Origin: a virus
IMG/VR virus record: IMGVR_UViG_3300010885_034560
Location: 1 to 21,633 of that record
Direction: 5' to 3' (one strand)
DNA: 21,633 nt
A program made the translations under genes and the position numbers. Shown here one piece after another: positions 1,434 through 21,632 of this stretch. The notes under the pieces are model-generated. The model saw only the letters and a program-made list of their open reading frames with translations. It searched no databases and was not told where the DNA came from. Within the stretch, counting starts at the first letter, position 1; each line of letters opens with the position of its first letter.

Positions 1434-1509
1434 TGAAGAAGGAGGGATTCGAACCACACGGCACAAGTGACATAATGTACTCTGCTCTAACCAACTGAGC
1501 TACTTCTTC
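1434..1509 (-). tRNA. Atypical or decayed tRNA with an irregular anticodon arm
   Basis: 76 nt with a perfect 7-bp acceptor stem (GAAGAAG with CTTCTTC, discriminator A), U8-A9, a perfect 4-bp D-stem (GCTC/GAGC) with loop AGTTGGTTA, and the canonical T-loop TTCGAAT. CCA is not encoded. Two parts are abnormal. The T-stem pairs only at its two loop-proximal base pairs and a G-U. No standard 5-bp stem with 7-nt loop can be drawn for the anticodon arm; it closes only if C at 1469 is bulged out, giving loop CATTATG with A at position 33 and UUA at 34-36. Identity therefore cannot be assigned. It lies 7 nt after the stop of the gene at 1517 and directly before a terminator, so it is co-transcribed. 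It is either a decayed tRNA or a tRNA-like RNA. Confidence 0.6.
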
Positions 1510-3109: not shown

Positions 3110-3507
3110 TTAATTAATGGGACAAAATCTTTTGAAGGGGTAAATTCGAAGTTATCTACAACAACAGGCATATCAATACTAAAAAATTTAAGGAATTTTT
3201 GAATGTCATTATCAATTTGAACACTAAACTCATACCATTGTTTATTAACAAGTTCTCTTCCTGTCATCTTTTGTTTATTACCAAAAGCACATAAGTAATA
3301 ATTAACCATACCTTCACCATTAACCAATTTAACCGAAACAAAAAGGTGGTCTTTCATTTCACCAATACTTATTAACTGAGCCACTTTATCAATATGGAAT
3401 TGATAGTAAGCCTTTACAGGTTTTTCACTGAAACTAACACGATGGTCGTAAACAAAAGTTTTACCTTTTATAAACTTGTTAATTTTATTGATTTCATTAT
3501 TCCCCAT
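3091..3507 (-). CDS. Hypothetical protein (about 138 aa)
   Basis: The protein starts MGNNEINKINKFIKGKTFVY; an in-frame ATG three codons earlier (3516) is possible. It is rich in predicted beta strands (KAYYQFHIDKVAQLIS, HLFVSVKLVNGEGMVNYYLC) and ends in a short acidic tail. No enzymatic motif is seen. Its start overlaps the 3' end of the HExxH gene by 11 nt, so the two are translationally linked and may act together, for instance as partner or inhibitor of the protease-like protein. That link is inference from position only. Confidence 0.7.
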   Translation of the reverse strand: MGNNEINKINKFIKGKTFVYDHRVSFSEKPVKAYYQFHIDKVAQLISIGEMKDHLFVSVKLVNGEGMVNYYLCAFGNKQKMTGRELVNKQWYEFSVQIDNDIQKFLKFFSIDMPVVVDNFEFTPSKDFVPLINLEDKE

Positions 3508-4561
3508 CTCTTTCAATAGTTAAAAGTCTCATGTATCTTTTCTTCAAAGTCTTGCCCGCATCATTTATTCTTTTTTCATATTTTTTGAATAATTCAAATA
3601 AATTTTTTGTTTTAAATACTTGGTCTTCCATAACTTTGATTTCATCTTTAAGTACATCAATTGCCAAAGACTTATATTGTTTTAGATAAAACTTATGTAA
3701 ATTCTTTATGTGAAAATCAACTGCGTCAGGAGACTTTTCTTCAGTTGTTTTTATTAATTCATCGTATAATTGCTCAGCTGAATAATTTTCCATCTCATCG
3801 GCAATTTTCCATTGTTTCGTCTCCTTGAATTCTTCAAATGACATTCTCTGCATTTTAGAATAAGCCTCTTGTGTATTAGCATTAATTTCCCAAGGTTCAG
3901 AATAATACATGTAATTTAAAAAATTTTCATACACTCTGAATATTTTTCTAGGTGTATTAACATTTACACTTCCAGCAAATGACTTTGGTAAATAAACCTT
4001 ACCAACACCCGTGGACTGCCATCTTTTATAAAATTCATACAAATGGTTTAATTCATGAGTTATAGTATCTAAAAAATCATTTAATAAATCGTCAATCATT
4101 GTTTCATCAAACTTTCTGATGTCAACGACAATATCAAAATCTAATTTACCATGAATAGTATAATCAATATTTTTTAATATTTTTTTAGGTAACTCAAATG
4201 ATGGTTCTTTCATATATGAATTATTCCCTTCAGTATCCTCAATGTCATAAGCCCCTCCCCCTGTTGAGAATGGTAAATCCCCTTCTAATGTTTTTTTAAG
4301 AGGTAAAAACTTAAACTCTATTTCAAGTTCTTCAACAGGAAAATCTAAAAATAGTTCAGTATCGTTTTTATAAACCTTTTTCAAATTTTGGAACCCAAGG
4401 TCTAAATCAATCGAATCTTGTTCCATTATGGAAATGGATTCGATAACATAAGGTTCAAGTAAAGTGTAAATATAATTAGTTAAATAAATTGCTGATTCGC
4501 TTACACCTTTCTCCTCAGTTAAGAAATGTTTAAAATTAGATTCGCGCACGATAACTCTCAT
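3497..4561 (-). CDS. HExxH zinc-metalloprotease-like protein with virion-targeting-type N-terminus
   Basis: A 354-residue protein. Residues 169-173 read HELNH inside THELNHLYEFYKRW, the HExxH zinc-binding/catalytic signature of zincin metalloproteases, with Glu170 the expected base. The third zinc ligand is not obvious; acidic candidates lie in EPWEINANTQEAYSK downstream, a position that suits a gluzincin-like Glu. The N-terminus MRVIVRESNFKHFLTE is the basic/hydrophobic peptide ending in L-T-E that recurs here, suggesting packaging in the virion and proteolytic trimming. The C-terminus is a Lys-rich coiled coil (residues about 280-350). An ATATTTAC box lies 5 nt upstream. It may be an injected peptidase acting on host proteins, or a structural zincin fold. 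Substrate unknown. Confidence 0.7.
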   Translation of the reverse strand: MRVIVRESNFKHFLTEEKGVSESAIYLTNYIYTLLEPYVIESISIMEQDSIDLDLGFQNLKKVYKNDTELFLDFPVEELEIEFKFLPLKKTLEGDLPFSTGGGAYDIEDTEGNNSYMKEPSFELPKKILKNIDYTIHGKLDFDIVVDIRKFDETMIDDLLNDFLDTITHELNHLYEFYKRWQSTGVGKVYLPKSFAGSVNVNTPRKIFRVYENFLNYMYYSEPWEINANTQEAYSKMQRMSFEEFKETKQWKIADEMENYSAEQLYDELIKTTEEKSPDAVDFHIKNLHKFYLKQYKSLAIDVLKDEIKVMEDQVFKTKNLFELFKKYEKRINDAGKTLKKRYMRLLTIERDGE

Positions 4562-5090: not shown

Positions 5091-5909
5091 TAAGATTAGA
5101 AAAGCCTGAGATTACAGCTTATGTTAAGAAACTTTGGAAGGATTATTTTTTCCCTTCGTATCCACCACCTTTTGGGTAGTATTTCTCAGTGACGGTCTTT
5201 TAGGTCTACCACTCCTTGAGGTTTGAATTACTCTATCAGTACTTAACTCTTTCCGAGGTTGCCACCCCAGTTCATCCTTGCGGGATTAAAGGTTTTTCGT
5301 AACAATACACATTGACTTGGGGTCTTTGTGTGCAATGAACGGCTCATTACTATGTAGTCACCTTTCACTCAAACCTGATGGACACTTTTCCTTTGTTATT
5401 TACATAATTTTAGGGTTGTGTTGTAGATGTGTCAGAGTAGTGGTCCAACATAAGCTCTGTCTCCTTTTGAGCGACAGAATACTAAACTACTCCGTGAAGT
5501 GTCCCCACCTCCATATTCCAAGATTACTTCATAAAGAGACCTTGGTAGGTCGTCCTTAGGGATAGTAGCGACACCACTCGTTCTCTATCTTACCTTTCGG
5601 TTTTAAGTCCTCTATCATATTGGGACCCGCAATAGTGTAACTGGATGGTCACATTTCTTACAGAGTTCCTATGGGTTATTCTTATTGTTCTTCCGAACTC
5701 AACCTGACAATCTACTTTGCCATGTCACCCTACCATTTTCCCTACGAAGTTATCCTCGGTACTTACGGTTTGGTGATATCCCACTTGTGTACTTGAGCTC
5801 CATCTCTGAAGCCGCAGTCCCCTCAACACAAGGGAGACCACTTTATCCTACTTTCGTAGTTTATTTAAGGACCATACACGGCCCATTATCGTTTATCAGA
5901 TTAAATGTC

Positions 5910-6385: not shown

Positions 6386-6733
6386 ATGAATATAAAAATT
6401 GGTGATAAAATCATACCTGTAAGAATTGCAAAATCTGCGGCGAATATTGAAAGAGGTATGATGGATAAAACATTTACCAATTTTGGTGGGATGTTTTTCA
6501 TACTTAAAAAAGATTACACATGTTTTTGGATGAAAAATTGTATAATCCCACTAGATATTATTTTTATAGATGAAAAATTTAGAATAATTGACATATTTGA
6601 AGATTGTCAACCTTGTGAAGAACATCAATGTGAACATTTCTGTTCAAGAGGTAAATACGTTTTAGAAGTTCCCGCAGGATTCTGTAGTAAAAATGAAATA
6701 GATTTAGGGTTAAAAATTAGACTTCTATATTAA
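6386..6733 (+). CDS. DUF192 family protein
   Basis: A 115-residue protein with the typical DUF192 layout: ERGMMDKTFTNFGGMFFIL, then CFWMKNCIIPLDIIFIDEKF, then a central segment and VLEVPAGFC near the end. DUF192 proteins are small beta-rich proteins of unknown biochemical role found in bacteria, archaea and phages. This copy has an unusual Cys/His cluster (CQPCEEHQCEHFC), a possible metal site. The frame is open upstream to 6299, but the ATG at 6386 fits the family N-terminus and the promoter-like box. It is convergent with the 7780 gene, the two 3' ends overlapping by 9 nt. Confidence 0.8.
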   Translation: MNIKIGDKIIPVRIAKSAANIERGMMDKTFTNFGGMFFILKKDYTCFWMKNCIIPLDIIFIDEKFRIIDIFEDCQPCEEHQCEHFCSRGKYVLEVPAGFCSKNEIDLGLKIRLLY

Positions 6734-7780
6734 AGAAACTGCCTTCATCAAGAAACCTAATGGGTCTTGTTTATCCTTATCACCAACTTCACTACTATTC
6801 GATGACGTTTGTGTTTCTGAATTTTCTGATGAATTAGAATCAATTTTAGAAAAGTCATCTTTCCAAGCTTCTTTACCTTCTTCAGTTTCTGCATATTTTT
6901 CGAATTCTTCACTAACTTTTTCTTCACCCATACTATTTGCAAGTTCTTCAGGTCCAACAAAATTACCCAAATTCATATAATCTAAAAAAGATGCCCAAGC
7001 CTTAGTTTTACCAATTAACATTGATAGTTGTGGGTTTCTCCACCATCCTAATTTTTTAAAAAACTTGGTAGCATTACCAAAGTTTTCAATACCAAAATCT
7101 CTGAAGTGTCTTCCGGCCTTATTATTTAATACCTTACCTAATTGTCCCGCTTCTTTAGCCGCAAGACCTTCAGCCTTACCAGCAATTTTCGCCCCAACCT
7201 TAACTTCTGCACTCGCTCCTTTAAATAAAGTAACCCATTGTTCAATTAATCTAAACAAACTACCAACCAATGGAATGTTCTTAGCCTTCTCCAACATACC
7301 TAATAATTTAGAACCCCAAGTTGGTGCTTCAGTAACTAATTTACCTAAAGCTCCACCCTCTTTAGTTGCAATACTTGCCATTTTAGTAGTATCCTTGGCT
7401 AAAGTGGCAGCTTTAAACGCTCCCATAGTACCTTTACCAACCTTTCCTAATAATAAAGGTTTAGCAATTAAATCACCAATATAAGGTACTGCAGATATTA
7501 ATGATAATAATCCAAAAAACTTATCACCCTGTTTGAAATAAGAGATTCCATTAATTAAATCAACGATACCAGTAGGGTCGAATATACCCACAATATCTCC
7601 AATTGTATTATACCATTTTGCCTCACTTAATATTTTTTTACTATTAGGAGTTAGATACAACATACATTCAAAAACAAACTCTTTCTCTTCTCGTGAAAGG
7701 GTTGGCCATAAACTTTTTAGTTCATTAACACTTTGTTCTCGTCTTAATTCAGATTCTGTAATAAATTTAACTTTTGTCAT
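6725..7780 (-). CDS. Glycine/alanine-rich membrane-active-looking protein with pre-toxin-like segment, probable virion protein
   Basis: A 351-residue protein. The N-terminus MTKVKFITESELRREQSVNE carries the F-I-T-E form of the recurrent targeting peptide. Residues about 55-115 (GDIVGIFDPTGIVDLI ... LISAVPYIGDLIAKPL) match the hydrophobic, Gly-rich pattern (FDPTG.VDL, then VPYIGD) that I know from pre-toxin regions of secreted polymorphic toxins. The middle is Ala/Gly/Lys-rich helices, and the end is an acidic, Ser/Asn-rich tail (NSSENSETQTSSNSSE). No toxin active site is seen. I infer an internal or ejected virion protein that contacts membranes. It overlaps the 8142 gene by 4 nt (ATGA) and shares its ATATTTAT box. 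Confidence 0.65.
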   Translation of the reverse strand: MTKVKFITESELRREQSVNELKSLWPTLSREEKEFVFECMLYLTPNSKKILSEAKWYNTIGDIVGIFDPTGIVDLINGISYFKQGDKFFGLLSLISAVPYIGDLIAKPLLLGKVGKGTMGAFKAATLAKDTTKMASIATKEGGALGKLVTEAPTWGSKLLGMLEKAKNIPLVGSLFRLIEQWVTLFKGASAEVKVGAKIAGKAEGLAAKEAGQLGKVLNNKAGRHFRDFGIENFGNATKFFKKLGWWRNPQLSMLIGKTKAWASFLDYMNLGNFVGPEELANSMGEEKVSEEFEKYAETEEGKEAWKDDFSKIDSNSSENSETQTSSNSSEVGDKDKQDPLGFLMKAVSLI

Positions 7781-10320: not shown

Positions 10321-11610
10321 CTATTCAACTATTTCAAAAATATAGTAAGTATCTCCATCAAATTCAACACTATCTTCACTTCCATCATAATAATTTAAGA
10401 CAGACCCATAACTATCATTCCTAACAACTTGTTTTGCAATGTCTTTTTCATCAACAAAATTTGAAACCTCTAATCCATAATTTTTGATTAAGTCTATTGG
10501 GTCAGATACCAAATCATTCAATAGTTCTTCAACCTTGTCGTCAATTAAATGTTCAGGTACATCTTTATCACTATTTTTTAGGTCGTCTAATTCCTCGTTT
10601 AATTCATCATATTCTTCTTGACTTAATCCGTTAGAATCTTGGAGTAGTTCTTCAATCTCGTCAATTCTTTCCGCAACTTTCGGGTCAGAATATTCAAATT
10701 CATCCTCATCAAAAAAACTTTCTAAACTGTCTCTAACAGTATCATATTCACCGTCTCTGAAATAATCTTTTAACGATTCCTCATCAATATTATCACGGAT
10801 TAACCATTCAGAAACAGCATTTTCAACACCTCCAGCACCGTCAAATGAATCAAGTGTTGATTCTATCGCACCAATTTCAGTATCATATTCATCACCAACA
10901 TAATATATCGATTTACTTAACCCATCAGGTGTTGCAACTCTAAACCCACGAAGTCTATAATTCCGACCATCAGGAAGTAAATCATAAACGTCAATTCTAT
11001 TTTCAATTTCACTGATATCGTCATTTATACTATCTAACTCTCTCAAGTTTTCATCATCTTCAGTTTCGACTTCAATTTGTTCTCTTCTTTCTTTTTCAGC
11101 ATACAACTCTTCTAACCTTTGGGAGTCCCCTGGTTCTTTTTCTTCAAACTCAGTTAGGATTAGGTATTTGAAAAGAGCATTTGCACATTTACCCAAATCA
11201 TCTAAATTACCGTCCGTGTCCCAATCACCTCGTTGTCTAATCTCTTCCTGAGCTCTTAATCTCTTTTGAAACTCTAAATAGTCCAACCTTTTTTGTAGTG
11301 GTGTACTGTATTTTGAAATATATCCAGTGGCAGTAACCCCATCTAATGTTTTGATTTGAGTATTACTAACATCTAATCTACCTTTAATAGTAATTGTTCC
11401 TAAATCTTTAAGTGGGGTTCTATCCAAATTTAAATCACCGTCAATTACTATTTTTTTTCCTTTGTATTTTTTATAATTGTTAATTAATTTACCATCATAC
11501 GAAAAGAATCTTAGTAACTCACGATACTCTTCAGGAGTAATGTGAATTTCATTACTTTCATCATTTTCAGAAATTAACTCCTTGACTAAATTTAAAATTT
11601 TAATTCCCAT
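10321..11610 (-). CDS. Large acidic protein with LRR-like N-terminal part, probable virion protein
   Basis: A 429-residue protein. N-terminus MGIKILNLVKELISE, the L-I-S-E form of the recurrent targeting peptide. Residues about 50-100 read IDGDLNLDRTPLKDLGTITI, then GRLDVSNTQIKTLDGV, a short leucine-rich-repeat-like beta pattern. The remainder is very acidic with coiled-coil stretches (ERIDEIEELL; YDELNEELDDLKNSDKD). It ends with TAG, which would add only one sense codon before TGA if read through. Exact ATATTTAT box 6 nt upstream. First gene of the minus operon ending in the methyltransferase. Acidic packaged proteins are known as DNA or protein mimics, but no such role can be shown here. Confidence 0.75.
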   Translation of the reverse strand: MGIKILNLVKELISENDESNEIHITPEEYRELLRFFSYDGKLINNYKKYKGKKIVIDGDLNLDRTPLKDLGTITIKGRLDVSNTQIKTLDGVTATGYISKYSTPLQKRLDYLEFQKRLRAQEEIRQRGDWDTDGNLDDLGKCANALFKYLILTEFEEKEPGDSQRLEELYAEKERREQIEVETEDDENLRELDSINDDISEIENRIDVYDLLPDGRNYRLRGFRVATPDGLSKSIYYVGDEYDTEIGAIESTLDSFDGAGGVENAVSEWLIRDNIDEESLKDYFRDGEYDTVRDSLESFFDEDEFEYSDPKVAERIDEIEELLQDSNGLSQEEYDELNEELDDLKNSDKDVPEHLIDDKVEELLNDLVSDPIDLIKNYGLEVSNFVDEKDIAKQVVRNDSYGSVLNYYDGSEDSVEFDGDTYYIFEIVE

Positions 11611-11953: not shown

Positions 11954-13045
11954 ATGAAACTTTACGAATCAGAAAATAAACCAGAACTAACGAATAGACA
12001 GAAAAAAATTTTAAATATTTTAAAAAATGTTGAAGATGGTGAAATAGATTACGATTATCTAGGTCACGCAGTTGGGGGTGTCTTAAAATTCATAGATTTA
12101 TTGGATAAAGAAAATTTGATTAATTATTTGGACCCTATGAATGTGGTTTGGAGTGATTATGAAAATTATCTTTTATATAAAAAAGTCGAATCAGACTCAT
12201 CTTATATATGGGAAGTAATTAGTAATTTATCAGATATTACAAAAATTGGTGACATGCTCTATTTTGATACTGATGGAGAAGAACTTTCAGAATTATTCGA
12301 GACATATAGAGGAGATATTAGTCAAAATACCATTGAAGAAATTATTAATGGTGAACACGATATGAACCTTTGGGACACTACAGATGACGAATATAGAGAT
12401 GTATACCTTGAATTAACTCCTGAAAACAAAAAGTTAGTTGATGATAGGATTCGTAAGGACCTAATAATGGAAGAAACTTTAAGAGCCGCAACATCTTTAT
12501 TACAAGAAATTGCGGAAGAACAAGGTAGAGAAACTGTTATGTTAGATGACGAAATAATCACTCGTATTTTAGACGATGAAGATACTATGGTATTTTTGAT
12601 TAATAAAGAATTAGATGATGTTAGACATGATTTATATAGTATTCATTCAAGTTGTTATAGTGGTATTTTATCAGACGAATGGTATGATGATATTATGTCT
12701 GAATTAACCGGTGAGGTAATTGATAATAGTACGTTTGAAGAATACAAATACACAAAAAATATTCATAATAAAAATTCAGGAAGACATGAACCTAGGACAG
12801 TATATTCTAGACGATATCCAGCGAAAGAATGTGTATTTCATTTGGTGAGAGAATGGATTTATGAAAATAAAGAGAGTACATATAATGACGATAGTATTAG
12901 TTATCATGGTTCATATTTTCAATTAATGAAAAGTGCCATGGATAATGGTATGAGAAGTAAACTACGCACACCCAATTTAGACAGCTACCCTGACTATAAT
13001 CAAATGACTAAGTGTATAAATGGATTTATAGATGAGTATTTTTAA
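11954..13045 (+). CDS. Acidic hypothetical protein, tandem paralogue A
   Basis: A 363-residue protein, N-terminus MKLYESENKPELTNRQKKIL. It aligns by eye with the next gene along its length: NLINYLDP with NLETYVDP, SSYIWEVI with PDFIWDII, DLYSIHSSCYSGILSDEWYD with DLVRMYKNGYEDLLSKELED, GEVIDNS with GKVIDSK, and the ends GFIDEYF with EIFVDFY. The two therefore arose by duplication. It is acidic and mostly helical, without a catalytic motif. The short ES-containing start suggests the virion-targeting group. The downstream paralogue begins 1 nt after its stop. Confidence 0.75.
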   Translation: MKLYESENKPELTNRQKKILNILKNVEDGEIDYDYLGHAVGGVLKFIDLLDKENLINYLDPMNVVWSDYENYLLYKKVESDSSYIWEVISNLSDITKIGDMLYFDTDGEELSELFETYRGDISQNTIEEIINGEHDMNLWDTTDDEYRDVYLELTPENKKLVDDRIRKDLIMEETLRAATSLLQEIAEEQGRETVMLDDEIITRILDDEDTMVFLINKELDDVRHDLYSIHSSCYSGILSDEWYDDIMSELTGEVIDNSTFEEYKYTKNIHNKNSGRHEPRTVYSRRYPAKECVFHLVREWIYENKESTYNDDSISYHGSYFQLMKSAMDNGMRSKLRTPNLDSYPDYNQMTKCINGFIDEYF

Positions 13046-16422: not shown

Positions 16423-18095
16423 TAAAAATCAAGATAATCACAGAATACATCATTGTGAATATTTTCCCACGATAAATACCCAGTTTTCTTGAACATAAAC
16501 TTGATTTCCTTACTTCCAGACCCTGTAACGAATTCTGCAGTAGGATTACCCCACGTCTTCATATTTACGGTTTTTAATCTAAGGTCCAAAATAAAAATCG
16601 CGGCGTCCCAACTATCATCCAAACTTTCGTTAAACCTTCCAAGTGTCTGAACTCGATTAAACATAACCAGTTTCATATCCTCATTAATGTTTATATTACC
16701 AATTAATGGAAGATACTCAATAGACGCTCTGTCACCATTCTCATTACGAAGTGATATAATTAACGAACCAGGTCTATCCTGATAAGTCCTCACACAATTT
16801 GATTGGTGAACCGACTCATTAACATATTCCTCACTTTTTTGTAATACAATAGGTGTAAATACTCTACCGTCTTTAAGTTCAATTGGTTTAGAAACTTTTT
16901 CAACAAATTCATTTGAATAGTGACGGTTGTATTTACCTTTGGTATAAAAATCAACCTTGTCTGACCAAATGGTATGTTCAGCATTAAATTCCTTTAAAGT
17001 TCTAGAATTCCATCTAATAGGTTCGTAATTAAATAATTTATCAAAAAATCTTATGTGGTCATAAAAAGTATGAACCGATAGATTTGTATTTGTTTTAGAT
17101 AAAAGATATGTTTGATAACAATTAATCAAATCCCTTTTTTTGAAATTATCTAAACATGATGGTGGTGAGAATGGTGTCTCATCTTTTTTTGCGTTGAAAA
17201 CAAGACACAATTCCTCATCAGGTCTTTGTAAAATAAAATCTTTACCAAATACCCTAATAAGTTCTTTAATACTTTTGAAACAAGGAGTTTGTACTTTATG
17301 TAATATTTTCTTAACCTTTTCTGAATTCACATTATGTAATTTCATAAAAGTATCGACAAACTTAAAACCATTTTTTACATAATCCTTTTTGGTTGGTTTT
17401 GGGAATATGCCATGGAACCCTCTCCAGTTATCTGATTTTTTAATACCTTGTTTATCTAAAAGACATCCAAATAAAGAAACAGGTAAATCCATATGTCCTG
17501 TGATTTTTTCAGCTCCAATTTTAGAAAGAAATACATTAACCCCATTAATTAATTCTTCACTGTAAGTTTTAGAATCTTCAGCACCATTCATAAATGAATA
17601 ATAGAAATCAGTTGTTAGTGTTATAGGAAATGAGTTTCTTCTAGCAACACTGCCTTTACCTTTACCTCTTTTTTTATGATATTCAGTATTTCTACCAACC
17701 GTAAAGATATTGGTTTTCTTATTAAATGAAATGTAGTTTAATTTAGTACTCTTACGATAAAATACTTCCCCAACCTTTCTATGTCTCCCACAATAGAATA
17801 CCTTTAAAGCAATTTTATTCTCATCCTCCTCAACTACAAAAGTACTTCTATATAATGTGACTTCACATAATGGATTACCATAGTTTTTCAAAAACTCTTC
17901 CTCACTACCATTAACAGATTTGTCAAAAGTATAAACATAATGTTTACCATCAAAATAATTTTTTTGTGCGAGATAGTCAGTCTTGAAACCAAATGGTTCT
18001 TCAAGGATATTATCGGCAATCTCCCCTACCGAATTGTAGGGGAGATAGTGACCGACATAGAATTTTTTATTTACTAACTTAAACAAATTTTCCAT
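16422..18095 (-). CDS. PcfJ-like protein
   Basis: A 557-residue protein. Residues about 429-449 read HQSNCVRTYQDRPGSLIISL, matching the core of the PcfJ family (H..C..TY..R...G...I..LR), and NRVQTLGRFN near 480-490 corresponds to the Q..G..N element. PcfJ-like proteins occur on conjugative plasmids and phages and their biochemical role is not settled. The N-terminal 400 residues are basic and not recognised (KKRGKGKGSVARR near residue 140 looks nucleic-acid binding). The gene starts within the stop of DUF932 (TAATG). An 11-bp perfect hairpin lies in codons 17-26. DUF932 and PcfJ genes are both typical of mobile DNA. Confidence 0.65.
   Translation of the reverse strand: MENLFKLVNKKFYVGHYLPYNSVGEIADNILEEPFGFKTDYLAQKNYFDGKHYVYTFDKSVNGSEEEFLKNYGNPLCEVTLYRSTFVVEEDENKIALKVFYCGRHRKVGEVFYRKSTKLNYISFNKKTNIFTVGRNTEYHKKRGKGKGSVARRNSFPITLTTDFYYSFMNGAEDSKTYSEELINGVNVFLSKIGAEKITGHMDLPVSLFGCLLDKQGIKKSDNWRGFHGIFPKPTKKDYVKNGFKFVDTFMKLHNVNSEKVKKILHKVQTPCFKSIKELIRVFGKDFILQRPDEELCLVFNAKKDETPFSPPSCLDNFKKRDLINCYQTYLLSKTNTNLSVHTFYDHIRFFDKLFNYEPIRWNSRTLKEFNAEHTIWSDKVDFYTKGKYNRHYSNEFVEKVSKPIELKDGRVFTPIVLQKSEEYVNESVHQSNCVRTYQDRPGSLIISLRNENGDRASIEYLPLIGNININEDMKLVMFNRVQTLGRFNESLDDSWDAAIFILDLRLKTVNMKTWGNPTAEFVTGSGSKEIKFMFKKTGYLSWENIHNDVFCDYLDF
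18019..18046 (-). repeat. Perfect 11-bp inverted repeat inside the PcfJ-like coding sequence
   Basis: 18019-18029 is the exact complement of 18036-18046, with a 6-nt loop. In the mRNA it forms a GC-rich stem beginning about 50 nt after the start codon. No T-run follows, so it is not a normal terminator. Confidence 0.75.
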
Positions 18096-18844
18096 TAGCA
18101 GTAGGTCTCAGCAAGTTCCCAAAGTTTAGTGTTAATCATATTATCCATTGTCAAGGATTGGATTCCCTTTACGGTGCGAACATTACGACCTTGTTGTTTG
18201 ATGAATCCTCCACGGATTAACTTCTCTTGAACAACATTAAAGGTATTCCAAAGATTATCTTCTCTGTCTCCGTCACGAAGTGGGTCGATGATTGTCTCCA
18301 AAGTTAAACTTGAGATGTCCTCGGTGTTCTTCCAACGGATACCAACCGCTTTAGATACGAAGTCAATCTTTCTGTCAGTATTCATGGTAACTTCCATCAT
18401 ACGGTCAACTGACTTTTGGATTTTTGGAACATTTAATACAAACTGTTCTGTAATCATCTCAACATCACTCATACTCAAATTCAAGTGACTTTGTTTCATA
18501 TCTCCAAAAGTAGATACAGGTACTGTCAATCCGTTAGAACAAACCAAACGGTATAAACCAGCTCCGATTTGTAATGTTGACCCACCGTTATGTGAGTTTG
18601 TAATCACAGCCTCTAATAATGAATCTCCTACTTGTGGTAGTTCAGAGTTACGAAGACGAACTTGGTGTTTACCATATGCGGTTTTACCGACTTGTTTTGC
18701 GGAAGTGACTTCCCACCCATTTTGCATGAATTTGTCAACAACATCAATCGTGGGGACCATAGTATAACGGTCTGACAATTTTGAAAGTTTCTCTGTTTGG
18801 AAAAGTGATGGAACTGTTTGTTTAAGTAATTGTAGGTCTTTCAT
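18095..18844 (-). CDS. DUF932 phage/plasmid-like protein
   Basis: A 249-residue protein. The series RYTMVPTIDVVDKFMQNGWE, VTSAKQVGKTAYGKHQVRLR, then IGAGLYRLVCSNGLTV and a helical C-terminal half is the pattern of the DUF932 (phage/plasmid-like, TIGR03299-type) family. Function in the family is not established; members are common in phages and plasmids. It is the first gene of the operon that continues into PcfJ-like, glutaredoxin and thioredoxin, behind a perfect host-type promoter. Early or middle expression is inferred from that promoter. Confidence 0.8.
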   Translation of the reverse strand: MKDLQLLKQTVPSLFQTEKLSKLSDRYTMVPTIDVVDKFMQNGWEVTSAKQVGKTAYGKHQVRLRNSELPQVGDSLLEAVITNSHNGGSTLQIGAGLYRLVCSNGLTVPVSTFGDMKQSHLNLSMSDVEMITEQFVLNVPKIQKSVDRMMEVTMNTDRKIDFVSKAVGIRWKNTEDISSLTLETIIDPLRDGDREDNLWNTFNVVQEKLIRGGFIKQQGRNVRTVKGIQSLTMDNMINTKLWELAETYC

Positions 18845-18869
18845 ATTATTTAGTGTTTAATTGTGAGTA

Positions 18870-18901
18870 CAAATATACACTAAAATTCTAATTCAACCAA
18901 A
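18870..18901 (-). promoter_or_regulatory. Bacteroidota-type promoter of the DUF932 operon
   Basis: TTTG (18898-18901), exactly 20 nt, TATATTTG (18870-18877) on the minus strand; both elements match fully. It overlaps the 3' end of the interrupted gene, leaving about 25 nt from -7 to the ATG. Confidence 0.75.
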
Positions 18902-19178
18902 TAGTTCCATAATTTGTTTTAATAACTGGAGTTTGTATTTCAATTTTTTTACCTTTCTTAACAACATCGTCATACATTCCAACAACAATGTCAATAAGCT
19001 GTTTTTGGGTGAGTTGTATTTCATCACCCTTTTCAGCGTTTTCCTAAACTGTTTCTTTTAGTTTTTTGTAAAAAGCGGCCTTATTCATTTCACCTATAAG
19101 GTCAATAAGGTCATTAGGATTTTTTTCAAAGAATCCCAATAGGTTGTTTAAATATATTTCAGCGTCAACATTATTCAT
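18888..19178 (-). pseudogene. Small protein gene interrupted by one in-frame TAG (codon 45 of 96)
   Basis: From ATG 19176-19178 the frame encodes MNNVDAEIYLNNLLGFFEKN and onward for 44 codons, meets TAG at 19044-19046, then continues in the same frame for 51 codons (ENAEKGDEIQLTQKQLIDIV, ending GTIWLN) to TAG at 18888-18890. Both halves have protein-like composition and read as one domain of about 95 residues; no ATG restarts just after the stop. Explanations are a nonsense mutation (recent, as no frameshift is present), suppression or read-through, or a sequencing error. A TATATTTG -7 box lies 18 nt before the ATG. Its family is not named here. Confidence 0.7.
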
Positions 19179-19196: not shown

Positions 19197-19204
19197 CAAA
19201 TATA
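19197..19204 (-). promoter_or_regulatory. Partial host-type promoter (-7 only) for the interrupted gene
   Basis: TATATTTG on the minus strand, 18 nt upstream of the ATG. No TTG is found 20 nt further upstream, so it is weaker than the others. Confidence 0.35.
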
Positions 19205-19215
19205 ATATAAAAAAA

Positions 19216-20763
19216 TTAAATATCAGTTAAAAAATAGTACCCACCAGATTGGTCTTCCATTCTTCTCTTCAAGTTATCAGGAATTTGAACATTAGGATTA
19301 CTCTTTTCTAAATTAATAAATGATAAGTTATCTAAATCACCTAAACAACCTGGTAAAGATTGTAACTTAGGATTATTAGGTAACGCTAATAAATGTAAAT
19401 TTGTACAGTTACAAATTTCATCAGGTATTGTTTCAACAAAATTATCTAATAACAATGCGTGTAGATTAGTAAATCTACCAATACTACTTGGTACATTTAA
19501 TGTAATTGATTCTTTACCGTTATTTTCAATCAGTAAATGTTCAATTGTTTCAGGTAATGAACTAAATAATTCTTCAAATCCATATAATGCAACAAATTTA
19601 CCTGATTCATTACCCGGATATTTAATCTCAACTTTATTACTATTTCCTTTAACTAAATTCACCGCAAATTGAGGTTTGAAGTAATTTTTCAATTCCTGCA
19701 TAGGTCCATTTAACATTTGAACTAAATCAACTGGTCTATCCCTTCTGTTCATGAATTGTCCTGATTGGAAGTGGAATTGGTATCTTTCTTTTGGTAAACC
19801 TGTTTTTTTACCTCTTTCAGTTGATTCATTTGGTAAAACTACATAAAGTGGACCATCTTTAATATAGTGACTAAAGTAACTTCCGTCTACTTTAGATGTA
19901 CACCAGTTTGTCTCATCATATTCATCACTAATATCATAGAATCCTCCAAAATGACATGCCGCATTTTTATATTCAACCATTTCATTTGCATCTTGGGGTG
20001 TAGCGATTTTAACAACTGTCCAATTAGGACCTCTAAAATCAACAATAGACCCAGGGAATTTATATGGGTCTTCTTTCATCATCTCAATCTCTTTAGTACT
20101 CTTATCTTGTTTAGATAATTTGAAGCTCTCAACCGCAACAGATAATGTTTGTGGAGTATATTTGTTAATATCCTTTTCAGTTAATCTATTTTTAAATCTA
20201 TGGAACTTTAATAAATCATTTCCTAATTTATCAATATCCTCAATAAATAATCTACGATATTCTTTAACCGCCGCCTGATATTGTTTAGGGTCTTCCTTCA
20301 CATAGTCCTCAACATCCATTCTTGGCTCTTGGTAATTTTTTAACATCCACTGAGTATAAGCACCAACCTTAATCTTCTCCATATCCTCAAATGTGGCAGT
20401 TTCTTTGTCAAATCCCTGAGGTACTTTAGTGTCAGGGTCCCCAAAAATGATAGCTTTAAAAACATCAAACGGAATTTTTTTACCAGACGTAGCGTCGTAC
20501 TTACTTCTTTTTTGAGGATTACCTAAAATATCCAAAGCCTTTCTTAATTCTGCAAATTTAGCAGAATCTTTTTCAGGGTTTGATTCTAATTTTTCTCTAA
20601 TCGCATTTATTTTAGAATCGATAGCTTTTTGGGTTACTCCTTTTTTTAGACCAATCATTTGGTAATAGTCTTTCTGACCTTCAACTTCAACATTAGTGTC
20701 GTATAACATTCTAAAACGAGAAGTTTCTAAAATTAATGATTTTAATAAATTAGTAAATTTCAT
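19216..20763 (-). CDS. J-domain-like plus leucine-rich-repeat protein, probable virion protein
   Basis: A 515-residue protein. N-terminus MKFTNLLKSLILETSRF, the L-I-L-E targeting-type peptide. Residues 31-90 resemble a J-domain (DYYQMIGLKKGVTQKAI, then LGNPQKRSKYD), but the HPD tripeptide needed to stimulate Hsp70 is missing (SNPEKD occupies that loop). A middle module has Trp287-Cys-Thr-Ser290, YIKDGPLYVVL and RYQFHFQSGQFMNRRDRP. Residues about 402-500 are leucine-rich repeats (TNLHALLLDNFVETIPDEIC; TNLHLLALPNNPKLQSLP). This looks like a multi-domain interaction protein carried in the virion or acting on host proteins. An ATATTTAT box lies 20 nt upstream. Confidence 0.75.
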   Translation of the reverse strand: MKFTNLLKSLILETSRFRMLYDTNVEVEGQKDYYQMIGLKKGVTQKAIDSKINAIREKLESNPEKDSAKFAELRKALDILGNPQKRSKYDATSGKKIPFDVFKAIIFGDPDTKVPQGFDKETATFEDMEKIKVGAYTQWMLKNYQEPRMDVEDYVKEDPKQYQAAVKEYRRLFIEDIDKLGNDLLKFHRFKNRLTEKDINKYTPQTLSVAVESFKLSKQDKSTKEIEMMKEDPYKFPGSIVDFRGPNWTVVKIATPQDANEMVEYKNAACHFGGFYDISDEYDETNWCTSKVDGSYFSHYIKDGPLYVVLPNESTERGKKTGLPKERYQFHFQSGQFMNRRDRPVDLVQMLNGPMQELKNYFKPQFAVNLVKGNSNKVEIKYPGNESGKFVALYGFEELFSSLPETIEHLLIENNGKESITLNVPSSIGRFTNLHALLLDNFVETIPDEICNCTNLHLLALPNNPKLQSLPGCLGDLDNLSFINLEKSNPNVQIPDNLKRRMEDQSGGYYFLTDI

Positions 20764-20792: not shown

Positions 20793-21632
20793 TCAATAAT
20801 TCATAATTAATAACTCAATTCCCATATTTTGTGTTTTACCTTTCTTTGCCGCCGCAGCCTTTGCAAATTCTTTTTTTTCCCATTTATATTGTTCTTCAGG
20901 AAACCAATCATGTAATAGTTCAAAATCATAATAAGATAATGAAAACTTTCCCTGAATATTTTTTAATGAATTAGCAAGTCTTTCATGGTCATTTCTATCA
21001 AAGTCATGGTTTGAATAATAGTTTTCAGTTTTCCAGTATGGGGGGTCAGCATAAAAGTAAGTTGTGGGACTATCAAATTCTTTAATGACATTTTCAAAAT
21101 CGCCCAATCTAAAATGACTAATATTATTAAAGTGTTCAACCCATTCAGGTTTTGATAACTTATCTCTAAATGTAAGATATTTTGATTTATATTTACCCTT
21201 CAAATCAATAAAAGATGATGTCTCAGGTTTGGACCCGCTAAATACTTGAGTCAGGACATAAGCATACTTTGCAGCAACATCATAATCAGGATAATTGATT
21301 GTGAAACCTTTAGAGAAGATTTCCTTTTGAAATGTGTTGAACTGTTCTTTATATACCGGTGGTGTAACCTCTTCCCCCTTTTGTTGACAAGGAATTCTAT
21401 TCACTGCGGATAACAGAACTTCAGGGTTCTGAAGACACATAAACAAATTGTAATTAAGCGGATTAAAGTCGTTATAAACAACTCGTTTAAGATTTGGGAA
21501 CTCTTTCAAATCCATATTAAAGAAACACCAAAACATTCCCCCGAATGTCTCAACATATGTTTCCATGTCTTTTGGGTAGAATGGAACAATCCACTTCCCG
21601 ATTTTTGATTTTCCACCTATGTAGGATAGCAT
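20793..21632 (-). CDS. D12-class (Dam-type) adenine-N6 DNA methyltransferase
   Basis: 279 residues from the ATG at 21630-21632, one base from the window edge, so an upstream extension cannot be excluded; MLSYIGGKSKIGKWI is nonetheless a normal family start. AdoMet motif: YIGGKSKIGKW with VETFGG (near residue 30). Catalytic motif IV: ADPPYW (Asp196-Pro-Pro-Tyr199). This is the MethyltransfD12/Dam family (PF02086), alpha order, which methylates adenine N6; the site (GATC or other) cannot be read from the sequence. No partner endonuclease is visible. Probable role: masking phage DNA or marking it for phage processes. It is a different class from the methyltransferase at 8187-9044. Confidence 0.85.
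   Translation of the reverse strand: MLSYIGGKSKIGKWIVPFYPKDMETYVETFGGMFWCFFNMDLKEFPNLKRVVYNDFNPLNYNLFMCLQNPEVLLSAVNRIPCQQKGEEVTPPVYKEQFNTFQKEIFSKGFTINYPDYDVAAKYAYVLTQVFSGSKPETSSFIDLKGKYKSKYLTFRDKLSKPEWVEHFNNISHFRLGDFENVIKEFDSPTTYFYADPPYWKTENYYSNHDFDRNDHERLANSLKNIQGKFSLSYYDFELLHDWFPEEQYKWEKKEFAKAAAAKKGKTQNMGIELLIMNY

Follow-up and report, generated by a model that had tools for sequence, protein, structure and literature searches.

The window analysed here is the entire 21,633-base record of a virus, a fragment of the genome of an uncultured phage. A small conserved gene on its minus strand carries TAG at codon 45, where the closest relatives carry a tyrosine codon one base away. We put the probability at roughly 55% that this TAG is a real and recent nonsense mutation, and consider an erroneous consensus base in the contig to be a serious rival. 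All likely readings are ordinary, and these sequences are best explained without any new way of reading the genetic code.

The interrupted gene and its homologues

Translation of the gene gave an ATG start, 44 residues, the TAG, 51 further residues and a terminal TAG (Table 1). The initial annotation had described one in-frame TAG in an otherwise intact small gene, leaving the strand unstated, and had read the frame before and after it as one protein domain. The translation bore out the former, and the latter agrees with 74 IMG/VR loci that encode the whole protein across both sides of the TAG (43-86% identity). Because homology spans both sides in all of these loci, the open frame after the TAG is not due to chance. 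The idea that homologues might end at the same stop found no support, as codon 45 is open in 74 of 74.

Table 1. Positions of the interrupted gene, its parts and neighbours, and other features of the window.
Feature	Position	Strand	Remarks
Small phage gene, unnamed family	18888..19178	-	96 codons plus terminal TAG; interrupted at codon 45 (translation, homologues)
In-frame TAG, codon 45	19044..19046	-	Sole homology-supported internal stop in the window
Codons 1-44	19047..19178	-	Sole product if translation ends at TAG; comprises helices 1-2 and the greater part of helix 3
Codons 46-96	18891..19043	-	Open, conserved; invariant N47, Q60, G91, L95, N96
Terminal stop of the small gene, TAG	18888..18890	-	Sequence
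DUF932 protein gene, intact downstream neighbour	18095..18844	-	Pfam PF06067
TATATTTG, promoter-like, shortly before the interrupted gene	19197..19204	-	Pattern search
TATATTTG before the downstream DUF932 gene	18870..18877	-	Pattern search
tRNA-like gene	1434-1509	-	Rfam tRNA, 43.6 bits; missed by ARAGORN
GOLLD RNA	5103-5494	-	Full-length match, 319.5 bits; stretch without a convincing gene
Genes with similar short leader	2-532, 3497-4561, 6725-7780, 10321-11610, 11954-13045, 19216-20763		
D12-type adenine methylase	20793-21632	-	

Aligning homologues at codon 45, as the initial annotation had suggested, gave TAC or TAT (Tyr) in each of the 34 closest homologues (69-86% identical), and the copies found via neighbouring DUF932 genes all have TAC or TAT as well. 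Distant homologues have TAT (Tyr), GAA/GAG (Glu), ATT/ATA (Ile) or ACT/ACG (Thr) at this position. By this codon usage, tyrosine is the residue in the neighbourhood of the phage, and its conservation loosens among more distant homologues. A single transversion separates TAG from either TAC or TAT.

Compared with L001, L002, L004 and L005, codons 1-44 showed dN of 0.03-0.09 and dS of 0.37-0.69, and codons 46-96 showed dN of 0.08-0.10 and dS of 0.61-0.80. On these values both halves look like a protein under purifying selection, and because synonymous changes dominate per site in both, the stop would either have arisen recently or be an artefact. We also considered whether selection is relaxed past the TAG and set this aside: too few changes underlie the slightly higher dN of codons 46-96, and unique residues are likewise too scarce to reveal relaxed constraint. 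When 4,265 ORFs of relatives were searched reciprocally against the window, 84 spanned the codon-45 TAG, and the other stops met in the resulting table, which was read by eye, fell at gene edges or in ORFs that are antisense or out of frame. The same table showed no supported frameshift in the window.

The motif TATATTTG sits 19-26 bases before the ATG of the small gene. Its occurrence across the window is mildly enriched (51 observed, 36 expected), and the copy upstream of the small gene is suggestive of a promoter. The DUF932 gene has its own TATATTTG, and for this reason the polarity caused by the stop may be limited. The motif resembles the Bacteroidota promoter -7 motif; because of this likeness the phage host is probably a member of Bacteroidota.

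The DUF932 neighbour is 87-95% identical to the copies of close relatives, which are uninterrupted. Comparison of 18844-18891 in the window with L184, L185, L199 and other loci placed the small gene next to DUF932 in many relatives and about 1.3-1.4 kb from it in others; it was not seen beside DUF932 in L197, L198, L200, L204 and L205. The spot is thus one that takes insertions. In five relatives the DUF932 gene is 89% identical and has no small gene beside it; these contigs are fragments and do not support a claim of dispensability.

Elsewhere in the window, a similar short leader (MKYIISES.., MRVIVRES.., MTKVKFITES.., MKLYESE..) opens several otherwise different proteins and recalls the capsid-targeting leader of T4 internal proteins. 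The nearest relatives of the D12-type adenine methylase in the phage collection (52-56% identity) are found in uncultured huge phages of 630-735 kb.

Probable nonsense mutation or possible consensus error

The preferred reading is that a single-base substitution turned a tyrosine codon (TAC/TAT) at codon 45 into TAG. Host release factor 1 would be expected to end translation at this codon, and a fragment of 44 residues would remain. An AlphaFold model built from 35 sequences (mean pLDDT 74, pTM 0.57) shows four helices and a C-terminal hairpin, with codon 45 inside helix 3 (33-50), so that the fragment would break off before helix 3 is complete and miss helix 4 and the hairpin. All five invariant residues (N47, Q60, G91, L95 and N96) lie beyond the TAG. 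Internal restart was ruled out, since the first ATG, GTG or TTG after the TAG is codon 68, and no usable start would follow close behind the stop. The fragment is probably inactive. The small gene matched no Pfam or PHROGs family, and family, PDB sequence and fold searches of the small protein returned no function. Because the rest of the frame is undecayed, the nonsense event would have been recent.

Several findings argue for a nonsense change: all 74 homologues are open, and the 34 closest have TAC or TAT, one base from TAG; no other internal stop in the window has homology support; TAG terminates genes here, and no tRNA with a CTA anticodon was found in the window or the relatives (see below); and dN is low relative to dS in both halves. 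No second contig of the same phage was found, the nearest having about 80% DNA identity, and searches via the 557-aa and DUF932 neighbours yielded no same-species sequence over the site. There were no matches among isolated phages or GTDB genomes. A search for same-population contigs by the DNA pattern around the TAG gave two matches, both due to chance and in unrelated contigs.

The serious rival, which we regard as quite possible though not as probable, is that the contig consensus is in error at this base, through a sequencing or assembly mistake or a minority strain picked at low coverage, and that the gene is intact. A single-base change in an otherwise perfect frame under purifying selection has the look of an error. 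The miscalled base would also match its neighbour (TTTTCC on the plus strand), a common error pattern. Moreover, no stop was found within conserved genes of the relatives in about 98,500 aligned, partly redundant codons from 74 loci; judged by this count, fixed nonsense changes are rare in this phage group, which makes an error in the consensus conceivable. Against such an error stands the rest of the contig, which has no supported frameshift and no second supported stop and is thus not generally error-ridden.

TAG usage and an improbable readthrough

The survey of stop usage took in 31 genes picked by hand from the window, about 6,500 codons in total, among which the codon-45 TAG is the only internal stop. 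The 30 complete genes end with TAA (21), TGA (six) or TAG (three). TAG ends two other window genes and the small gene itself, and it also ends the small gene in four of nine relatives checked (L001, L002, L005 and L008). If this terminal TAG were read as sense, the protein would gain 14 residues (the TAG and 13 codons), up to a TAA before the DUF932 gene. By this usage TAG is a working terminator here, and because it ends two other window genes, the small gene and the relatives' copies, reassignment or strong suppression is very unlikely. The initial annotation had stated that other genes stop normally and that the long ones contain no TAG, as we also found, and had called general reassignment unlikely; with TAG as the small gene's own terminator, the case is stronger than it claimed.

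The relatives' loci, including 127 tRNA genes in tRNA-bearing stretches, contain no CTA anticodon detectable by ARAGORN, and none turned up in the window, which is part of the phage genome. Its sole tRNA-like gene lacks CTA and was ruled out as a suppressor. This gene has an odd anticodon loop and a mismatched T-stem and is followed by a terminator-like hairpin. The anticodon loop is likewise abnormal in its homologues in G003 (L084:5689-5764) and G020 (L151), and the G012 copy (L145:4309-4382) reads as tRNA-Phe (GAA). On these features, the gene may represent a degenerate tRNA or else a tRNA-like RNA that serves some other role.

A leaky amber, from which some full-length protein is made via near-cognate tRNA-Tyr or tRNA-Gln or via a suppressor tRNA encoded elsewhere by the phage or by its host, appears improbable to us. 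In its favour, the residue in relatives is Tyr, both Gln and Tyr are reported to be placed at UAG by near-cognate decoding in recoded E. coli (PMC6207430), and most of the phage genome lies outside the 21.6-kb record (relatives reach 240-322 kb). On the other side, there is no conserved readthrough element, since no relative keeps the stop (0/74); the small gene's own terminator is TAG; and no suppressor tRNA was found in relatives. Folding of the 120 bases that follow the TAG gave z -2.3, no greater stability than in relatives with a sense codon (z -1.9 to -6.0 for the corresponding bases); close relatives share the first hairpin. An RNA readthrough element was ruled out, as folds are equal or stronger where the codon is sense. 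By analogy, a basal trace of full-length Tyr-form protein is plausible and needs no special mechanism, because E. coli lacking RF1 is known to insert Gln and Tyr at UAG by near-cognate decoding (PMC6207430). Functional leakiness as such has no positive support. Of the three options given in the initial annotation, nonsense mutation and read error fit the data; the leaky amber is improbable, as no relative has a stop there, no suppressor tRNA was found and no RNA structure is specific to the TAG.

Even less probable, in our estimate, is that this phage alone among its relatives tolerates the amber, with readthrough by tRNA-Tyr or a suppressor sufficing and the gene suppressor-dependent or reduced in dosage. 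General TAG reassignment, known in crAss-like and Lak phages and mostly to Gln (PMC11210395), deserves almost no weight, as stop usage in these sequences already contradicts it: one internal TAG occurs in about 6,500 codons against many in recoded phages, and genes end in TAG. In addition, Tyr and not Gln is expected at this site, and neither the window nor the relatives' loci yielded a suppressor tRNA.

Significance and comparison with known systems

Taken alone, the case is of little import, since one-base stops are expected in single metagenomic contigs. For ranking such cases, recoding can be excluded fast by jointly weighing the codon in homologues, the stop that ends the gene itself, TAG usage elsewhere, suppressor tRNAs and a fold comparison. 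If the TAG is real in the phage population, this conserved small gene would be one that can be lost.

Programmed stop-codon readthrough occurs in Q-beta and related RNA phages, where, as here, a stop is followed by an open conserved frame. In contrast to that system, the stop described here is conserved in no homologue and interrupts a helix instead of marking a domain boundary.

Phages with code 15 (TAG to Gln), such as crAss-like phages and phAss-1 (PMC11210395, PMC9523058, PMC10607447), share the in-frame TAG in a phage gene, and the promoter-like motifs here, which suggest a Bacteroidota host, add a further likeness. In recoded phages TAG occurs in dozens of genes and is usually read as Gln, about half of these phages having a CUA tRNA (PMC10607447, PMC11210395), and 41 ORFs with in-frame TAG are given for phAss-1 (PMC10607447). 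Unlike these phages, the present one has a single such TAG at a Tyr site and uses TAG as a terminator. No suppressor tRNA came to light in the window or the relatives' loci, most of the phage genome lying outside the window.

The TAG base is known from one contig consensus, and the closest parallel to it is an amber mutation or young pseudogene, with which it shares the one in-frame stop, the open homologues and the otherwise undecayed frame, and from which we noted no difference.
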